From: Candidatus Sulfotelmatobacter sp.
Lineage (GTDB): Bacteria > Acidobacteriota > Terriglobia > Terriglobales > Acidobacteriaceae
NCBI GenBank assembly: GCA_025462865.1
Contig: JAOAPI010000124.1
Location: forward strand, 62,001 to 126,000
DNA length: 64,000 nt
Direction: 5' to 3'
Positions 37,825 to 38,617 of the stretch are shown here, piece by piece. How positions within the stretch are numbered: the first letter of the stretch is position 1; every line of letters begins with the position of its first letter. The translations under genes were made by a program, and so were the position numbers. The notes under the pieces are model-generated. The model worked only from the letters and a program-made list of their open reading frames with translations. It made no database searches and was not told the DNA's origin.

Positions 37825-38262
37825 ATGCTTGAATTCCTAAGAAAGTTCGAAGAGGAAGTCTCCACGTGGCCGCATGTATTGACGCAGTCGCACCGTTTTG
37901 GAGGGAAGGAATTTCTCCTTGGCAGCGCAGAGGTTGGACATGTGCATTGGGGTGGGATCGTTGATATTCCCTTTCCCCGCTCGGTTCGGGATGCACTGCT
38001 TGCCGAGAGGCTGGCTGAGGAGCATCGCTGGGTTCCGAACTCAGGTTGGATTACTTTTCGTGTTCGCCGGGAAGCAGACCTCCAGCATGCCCTCTGGCTT
38101 ATGCGCCTATCTTATCTGCGGTATGAGCTGAAAACCGCCGCTGATCCGCGTAAACTGTTTGAAGAGGCGAGTGAACGACTGCAACTGAGTCCGAAGTTCA
38201 AATCGTTGCTCGAACCGTTCGTACCTAAAAACGTCGTCGCGAGAAAGATGGTCTCCGCCTAG
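37825..38262 (+). CDS. DUF5519/luciferase-like domain protein
   Basis: A 145-residue soluble protein like the family named luciferase/DUF5519: WPHVLTQSHRFGGKEFLLG, VGHVHWGGIVDIPFP, HRWVPNSGWITFRVR and a C-terminal WLMRLSYLRY. Despite the family name, no light-producing role is known. Many relatives form small alpha/beta proteins. The next gene, the rhodanese-like one, starts 22 bases downstream behind its own AAGGAG, so the two are probably co-transcribed. Confidence 0.7.
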   Translation: MLEFLRKFEEEVSTWPHVLTQSHRFGGKEFLLGSAEVGHVHWGGIVDIPFPRSVRDALLAERLAEEHRWVPNSGWITFRVRREADLQHALWLMRLSYLRYELKTAADPRKLFEEASERLQLSPKFKSLLEPFVPKNVVARKMVSA

Positions 38263-38284
38263 GCCGATTTTCAAGGAGCTCAGA

Positions 38285-38617
38285 ATGGAAGGCACAATTT
38301 CTACCAAAGACCTGAAAGCCAAACTGGATAGCAAGGAGAGAATTCAGGTGGTTGAGACGCTCGCACCTGAACGGTACCGCGAAGCGCATATTCCCGGAGC
38401 CGTAAATATTCCGCCAGACAAAATTAAGGAACTCGCACCCCGGTTGCTGCCAAACAAGGATGCGGAAATCATTACCTACTGCGCGAACCCGCATTGACAC
38501 GCCAGCGAATACGCCGCCCGTGAATTGGCGGCCATGGGTTATACGAACGTGGCGCATTACCCCGACGGCAAACAGGGATGGATGGAAGCGGGATTTCCAG
38601 TGGAGAAGGCTGCCTAA
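38285..38617 (+). CDS. Rhodanese-like protein with in-frame TGA (candidate selenoprotein)
   Basis: A 110-codon frame with one in-frame TGA at codon 71 (38495-38497). Before it: MEGTISTKDLKAKLD, ERYREAHIPGAVNIPPDKI and ITYCANPH; after it: HASEYAARELAAMGYTNV, HYPDGKQGWMEAGFP and a TAA stop. Both sides match one single-domain rhodanese, and the frame is unbroken through the TGA. The TGA is five residues after Cys66, where related proteins usually have a second Cys (C-x4-C-x-A-S pattern). AAGGAG lies six bases before the ATG. A SECIS-like hairpin starts 15 bases after the TGA. Reading TGA as Sec is one option; a TGC-to-TGA nonsense mutation is the other. selA-D are not in the window. Confidence 0.65.
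38513..38532 (+). promoter_or_regulatory. SECIS-like hairpin after the in-frame TGA
   Basis: Perfect six-base stem GCCGCC/GGCGGC closing the eight-base loop CGTGAATT. The stem starts after 15 spacer bases, and the loop lies 21 bases past the TGA. The loop has a G in its first two positions. These fit the general rules I know for bacterial SECIS elements (G early in the loop, loop about 16-37 bases from the UGA). The hairpin also encodes conserved protein residues, so its GC content could be chance. Confidence 0.45.

Follow-up and report, generated by a model that had tools for sequence, protein, structure and literature searches.

A candidate selenium-dependent rhodanese with an elongated C-x4-U active-site loop in Acidobacteriota

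Rhodaneses carry sulfane sulfur on a cysteine of the active-site loop, and in the selenoprotein members whose motif starts with selenocysteine (Sec), UxxS and UxxG, we take this first Sec to occupy the catalytic cysteine position. Table 1 of a 2026 review of prokaryotic selenoproteins (PMC13188914), whose own tally is 119 families or subfamilies, gives the rhodanese forms UxxS, UxxG (twice), CxU (NF041203) and UxxxxU (TsoB, NF045694), and the review cites Haft and Tolstoy 2025 for TsoB. No rhodanese with a CxxxxU motif appears in that table, nor in the passages of PMC9312934, PMC1088965, PMC2398784, PMC12013277 and PMC1794560 that we consulted.

The protein described here resembles each of these forms in part. 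With the UxxS and UxxG rhodaneses (forms 1, 2 and 4 as tabled in PMC13188914) it shares a rhodanese fold with Sec, but their motifs start with Sec, whereas in the present family Sec would stand at the opposite end of the loop, the active-site cysteine, Cys66, being kept. Form 3, CxU (NF041203, rhodanese_LYCAU), is likewise a single rhodanese domain with Sec beside the active-site Cys, at C+2 rather than at C+5. TsoB (form 5 in the same table), the best NCBIfam match, combines a rhodanese domain having two Sec positions four residues apart with a DsbD-like part; in our family the first of two positions with this spacing is Cys in 28 of 29 TGA genes and there is no fusion, a comparison made at the level of the whole proteins.

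The window, by which we mean the whole 64,000-nucleotide stretch that was analysed of a contig from the soil acidobacterium Candidatus Sulfotelmatobacter sp., carries a rhodanese-like gene on the forward strand at 38285-38617, encoding 110 amino acids if TGA is read as Sec and ending in TAA at 38615-38617. Its frame contains a single internal stop, a TGA at codon 71 (38495-38497, forward strand), the putative selenocysteine codon at C66+5; under translation table 11, in which TGA is a stop, the same start gives a 70-residue open reading frame. A Shine-Dalgarno-like AAGGAG lies on the same strand at 38273-38278, 6 nt 5' of the ATG, and GGAG or GAGG precedes the start in most of the TGA homologues listed. 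With the TGA treated as a residue, the Pfam Rhodanese model PF00581 matched at 63.1 bits against a curated cut-off of 22.2, over the whole domain (residues 7-101) and across the TGA. The single stop, the ribosome-binding site and the rhodanese sequence on both sides of the TGA had all been reported in a first-pass annotation of this DNA, and all three hold.

An AlphaFold2 model with Cys put for Sec had a mean pLDDT of 93.8, and its top solved fold was 3nhv (TM 0.91, 33% identity). This protein, BH2092 of Bacillus halodurans (also PDB 3o3w), has the same long C-x4-C loop but Cys at the Sec position. Codon 66 (TGC, 38480-38482, forward strand) falls directly after strand E61-65 in the model, the place of the active-site Cys of the rhodanese fold. 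Residue 71 follows five residues later, giving the motif C-x4-U-x2-S in a loop that is two residues longer than those of L060, L061, L063-L065 and of 6mxv, 2jtq and 1yt8, and thus longer than the ordinary rhodanese loop. Long loops with C-x4-C were also found in Streptomyces and Leisingera plasmid relatives and in Cys forms from Acidobacteriota.

Bacterial selenoproteins are recognized by a conserved in-frame UGA that is paired with Cys elsewhere. An alignment of homologues at codon 71, proposed as a check in the first-pass annotation, returned this pattern: TGA in 29 distinct genes, the window's included, with identities to the window protein from 85% down to 40%, Cys in ten further relatives and Trp in two. 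The TGA genes are mostly from Acidobacteriota and were taken partly from records titled as metagenome-assembled genomes (MAGs), with further homologues coming from a scan of public genome contigs; TGA was also present in MAGs labelled Armatimonadota (L050), Gemmatimonadota (L056, L059) and Actinomycetota (L058), whose binning is as doubtful as usual. Profile searches at E 1e-25 gave matches in 7 of 399 genomes of the class (seven places, six with TGA) and in 27 of the 398 family genomes, at 28 places, of which 22 carry TGA and six lack a stop. In the genomes of 150 relatives, all full-length matches of at least 53% identity had the TGA, save the frame-shifted L022 at 53%. Since other genomes share the TGA at the same codon, it is no error of this assembly, which had been raised as a possible refutation.

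The 39 residues after the TGA are conserved, and the invariant positions of the protein alignment (A1) include S74, A77, A78, R79, L81, A83, G85, Y86, G95 and K96. The only TGA gene without C66 is L046, which has Trp there. Among the Cys relatives, L089, L104 and L111 are 55%, 53% and 52% identical to the window protein, and the C-x4-C-x-A-S pattern that the first-pass annotation gave for such relatives is indeed present in the nearest of them (YCASPTCHAS in L089, YCAGPACHAS in L111). The two Trp relatives, L109 and L110, have TGG at the Sec-codon site, one base away from TGA. Ordinary rhodaneses at greater distance are gapped at this site or carry a different residue. A 41-row tree, its support rough, required five changes of label at the site, and one genome (G525) holds both a TGA copy (L096) and a Cys copy (L111).

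Some relatives are damaged: L022 is frame-shifted, L019 and L105 show frameshifts, and L058 has TAG at codon 65. L022 was left out of all counts, as was L112, in which the gene is present only from the UGA onward; L019 and L105 were counted within the 29. L019 and L058 were kept out of the protein alignment A1 and included in the DNA alignment A2, with L058 also excluded from the parsimony count, and L027 was outside the count of six pairs given below and inside the SECIS constraint test. Loci that repeated a position or an identical protein were counted once (L010, L040, L042, L044, L047, L048, L053, L084, L085, L087, L088, L092-L100, L103, L107 and L108).

Downstream of the TGA, the window contains a predicted SECIS hairpin at 38513-38532 on the forward strand, composed of GCCGCC (38513-38518), the loop CGTGAATT (38519-38526) and GGCGGC (38527-38532). 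The stem of 6 bp starts 15 nt after the TGA, the 8-nt loop CGUGAAUU has G second and U third, the distance from UGA to loop is 21 nt, and the hairpin alone has a folding energy of -11.1 kcal/mol. The bSECIS model of PMC13188914 takes a loop of 3-9 nt, a stem of 4-16 bp, G at loop position 1-2, a UGA-to-loop distance of 16-37 nt and an MFE of at most -7.5, and the window hairpin lies within all four constraints as given there. The stem, eight-base loop and 15-nt spacing put forward in the first-pass annotation, together with their agreement with the SECIS rules, were thus borne out, but in this one sequence they carry little weight. When the same amino acids were re-coded with the codon usage of the family in 2000 trials, the same six pairs were kept in 19% and some 6-bp hairpin was present in 32%, and a set of 3000 synonymous versions of the window included 559 that satisfied the bSECIS constraints, which makes a hairpin in a single sequence weak evidence. 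With the fold energy of the window also unremarkable against re-codings (z 0.05), we rejected the energy or the SECIS constraints of one sequence as proof; the SECIS test is not specific on its own.

Across the family, the hairpin is strong evidence, judging from third codon positions that are near-fixed in the stem-loop and from one varying pair that is compensated. The bSECIS constraints were satisfied in 28 of the 29 TGA genes, and in every one of the 28 the distance from UGA to loop is exactly 21 nt, so the hairpin is kept in homologues, as the earlier reading required. It is not exclusive to them: two of 12 relatives lacking TGA also satisfied the constraints, namely L089, a Cys form whose loop GGCC lies 23 nt after the codon, and L110, a Trp form with a distance of 18 nt. 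All six original pairs were present in 27/29 TGA genes versus 0/11 of the non-TGA relatives counted, of which L089 keeps five. The TGA gene L020 has five of the six pairs and falls outside the bSECIS constraints. In L101, Ser replaces Ala in the 5' arm and the stem pairs anew in a shifted register, with CGTGA as its loop. The hairpin of the Cys form L089 likewise stands in another register, perhaps after a recent Sec-to-Cys change.

In the DNA alignment, 99.3% of the pairs counted were standard. The pair at columns 21/36 is C-G, U-G or U-A (the latter in L015, L052 and L055), and it is the only one that varies beyond a single mismatch. The covariation score, which rests on this one varying pair, was reached by 8 of 500 pair shuffles, and measures that count pairs or pair types were reached by 314 of 500. 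Fitch counts of third-position changes over 24 genes gave 0 at Ala+7, 2 at Arg+8, 0 at Leu+10 and 2 at Ala+11 within the stem-loop, and 5 at Ala+6, a column limited to C and T; beyond the stem-loop they gave 6 at +2, 10 each at +12, +14, +18 and +24, and 5 at +16, and the 13 upstream columns had 3 to 11. Ala+7 is GCC in 25 of 25 genes, and Arg+8 is CGT in 23 of 25, versus 11 CGT among 103 Arg codons elsewhere in the same genes. It is the conserved position of the hairpin and its conserved codons that carry the case for a predicted selenoprotein, despite the two non-TGA relatives that satisfy the constraints.

The first-pass annotation had further proposed a search for selA, selB, selC and selD, the absence of which would have counted against it. 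All four are present in the window genome (6.08 Mb, 98.45% complete), with selA at 449.1 bits, selB at 358.1 bits (over the cut-off), selD at 367.1 bits and a tRNA-Sec(UCA) at 65.6 bits, with TCA as anticodon. The selD gene (L080, on contig C125 of the same genome) has an in-frame TGA of its own within KAAGUASKLSP, as in Sec-containing SelD. KAAGUASK fits UxxK, the motif given for Sec-containing selenophosphate synthetase SelD in Table 1 of PMC13188914, and a second gene of the genome thus points to the same decoding.

The distribution of these genes was also followed beyond the window genome. A selA over the cut-off was found in 124 of 150 genomes of the clade and a tRNA-Sec in all 11 genomes tested, Cys-form genomes among them, for which reason we rejected co-occurrence with the Sec machinery as proof; neither selA nor selC, by its presence, tells Sec genomes from Cys genomes in this set. 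The tRNA-Sec model also passed its cut-off in five of 14 control genomes. A selB over the cut-off was present in nine of 11 TGA genomes and missing from two. The genome of L059 had no selA match and only a fragment of selB. L046 / L088 retains the TGA and has Trp for Cys66, and its genome carries selA and tRNA-Sec with no selB over the cut-off.

Upstream of the rhodanese, a gene with a Pfam Luciferase domain (PF17648) lies on the forward strand at 37825-38262 and ends 22 nt before the rhodanese ATG; its start was placed at the ATG at 37825 because the longer frame from 37669 overlaps a tRNA-Thr. The two genes are possibly co-transcribed, and the PF17648 gene was not among the 25 largest clusters of neighbours of 25 loci. 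These clusters were built from open reading frames of at least 90 aa around the loci, some of which have short flanks; the 25 largest were examined, with Pfam run on one or two members per named cluster. Apart from the rhodanese itself and shadow frames, no cluster was found at more than three of the 25 loci, and we accepted no neighbour as a functional partner. The clusters included msrA (L015 as a fragment, L016, L046), msrB (L015, L016), VKOR (L045, L086), a methyltransferase (L052, L054, L055) and a few others. In L015, L016 and L046, which are of one lineage, no more than about 1.5 kb separates the Sec rhodanese from the methionine sulfoxide reductase genes msrB and/or msrA. Farther upstream in the window, before the tRNA-Thr and the rhodanese, a cytochrome at 35891-37552 matches MtrC/MtrF-like and cytochrome c7 profiles.

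A second candidate Sec rhodanese, of the CxU type (YCTUP), directly follows the gene as a tandem pair in L013 (1064-1408, reverse strand) and L044 (from 3542, forward strand), and a CxU-type gene also follows in L112. The latter is an IMG/VR contig. Over its positions 1-1575 and 2001-2533 it has a frame that looks, by eye, like a large serine recombinase, then just the 3' part of the rhodanese, beginning with the UGA, and then the CxU-type paralogue with a TGA of its own. This arrangement could stem from insertion of a mobile element at the Sec codon or close to it, or reflect the border of a contig.

From what can be seen in the sequences, namely the gene, the machinery, the conserved UGA and hairpin and the exchange between Cys and Sec, we consider that 38285-38617 encodes a single-domain rhodanese selenoprotein in which the UGA at codon 71 is read as Sec, with a probability of about 0.92 that refers to this claim and not to the chemistry. 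The candidate selenoprotein of the first-pass annotation is in this way supported by the sel genes, the 29 TGA homologues and the hairpin in 28 of them. Decoding would be directed by the hairpin 15 nt 3' of the UGA and carried out with the genome's own SelA, SelB, tRNA-Sec and SelD; in bacteria, the match between SelB and SECIS can differ from one species to another. The TGA might instead be a true stop, through a nonsense mutation, in a pseudogene or in a functional rhodanese truncated to 70 residues, as table 11 would have it and as the frameshifts in L022, L019 and L105 and the TAG in L058 might suggest; with the same TGA in 29 distinct genes, the 39 residues that follow conserved, and the hairpin and third codon positions conserved beyond it, we regard this as very improbable. 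Equally slight is the chance that the UGA is read without selenium as Trp or another near-cognate residue, the inserted residue being the one that the Trp relatives mark. The TGG of L109 and L110 would fit such readthrough, but ten relatives have Cys, some of them fairly close to the window protein (L089, L104 and L111), and the Trp rows keep only three and two of the six pairs (though L110 can form another hairpin); the full Sec machinery and the UxxK-type SelD of the same genome also speak for Sec.

Given a selenoprotein, Sec at the far end of the loop appears well placed, in the linear order of residues, to attack a persulfide or sulfenic acid on Cys66. We propose that Cys66 would take up sulfane sulfur or be oxidised, forming the persulfide or sulfenic form, that Sec71 would then attack it, releasing sulfide or water and leaving a Cys66-Sec71 selenenylsulfide, and that this bond would be reduced by thioredoxin or a low-molecular thiol. 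An enzyme of this type would work as a self-resolving persulfide/thiol reductase and not simply as a sulfurtransferase. The placement suggests this resolution of the Cys66 persulfide only tentatively, at odds we put slightly below even. Sec71 may on the contrary be the nucleophile, or a ligand of selenium or a metalloid (e.g. for selenite, arsenite or Se delivery to SelD), with Cys66 in a supporting role; L046 holds the TGA with Trp at position 66, the Cys form L091 on a Leisingera plasmid adjoins a gene annotated as arsenic resistance, and L052, L054 and L055 precede a methyltransferase gene. This seems less likely, given that Cys66 is kept in 28 of 29 TGA genes, that L046 is a single MAG gene from a genome without selB over the cut-off, and that no neighbour is common to more than three of 25 loci. 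It is more doubtful still that the protein is merely another member of the known CxU or TsoB UxxxxU rhodaneses. NF041203 (50.4 bits) and NF045694 (50.9 bits) are its two best NCBIfam matches, all 23 A1 members match both at E 0.001, and in UxxxxU, too, four residues separate the two positions. These scores are, however, far under the cut-offs of 115 and 805 bits; Sec is at C+5 where NF041203 has it at C+2, and a CxU paralogue with Sec at C+2 lies next to the gene in L013, scoring 106 bits on NF041203, just under 115. TsoB, for its part, is a long rhodanese/DsbD fusion (572 model positions) with UxxxxU, compared with 110 aa and CxxxxU here, and none passed the cut-off in 396 genomes of the phylum, where the hits listed matched the profile after about position 134. 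By the tests made, with TsoB compared by model score and description, the window protein would be a selenoprotein of the rhodanese kind outside any named form.

We favour a selenoprotein with a resolving Sec71, and advance as a speculative overall picture, with the odds somewhat against it, that these proteins form an undescribed class of selenium-dependent rhodaneses, whose elongated C-x4-U loop would enable Sec71 to resolve the persulfide on Cys66 through an internal selenenylsulfide and make the single domain a persulfide/thiol reductase, with Sec, Cys and Trp versions swapped several times among these bacteria.

The CxxxxU rhodanese appears to add a selenoprotein subfamily beyond those in the 2026 table of prokaryotic selenoproteins (Table 1 of PMC13188914). 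Since the window protein scores below every NCBIfam cut-off, annotation may miss genes of this kind or enter them as truncations of 70 aa. With Sec, Cys and Trp all occurring naturally at one position, and with a Sec and a Cys copy both present in the G525 genome, the family offers a convenient system in which to study the benefit of selenium in a sulfur-transfer fold.
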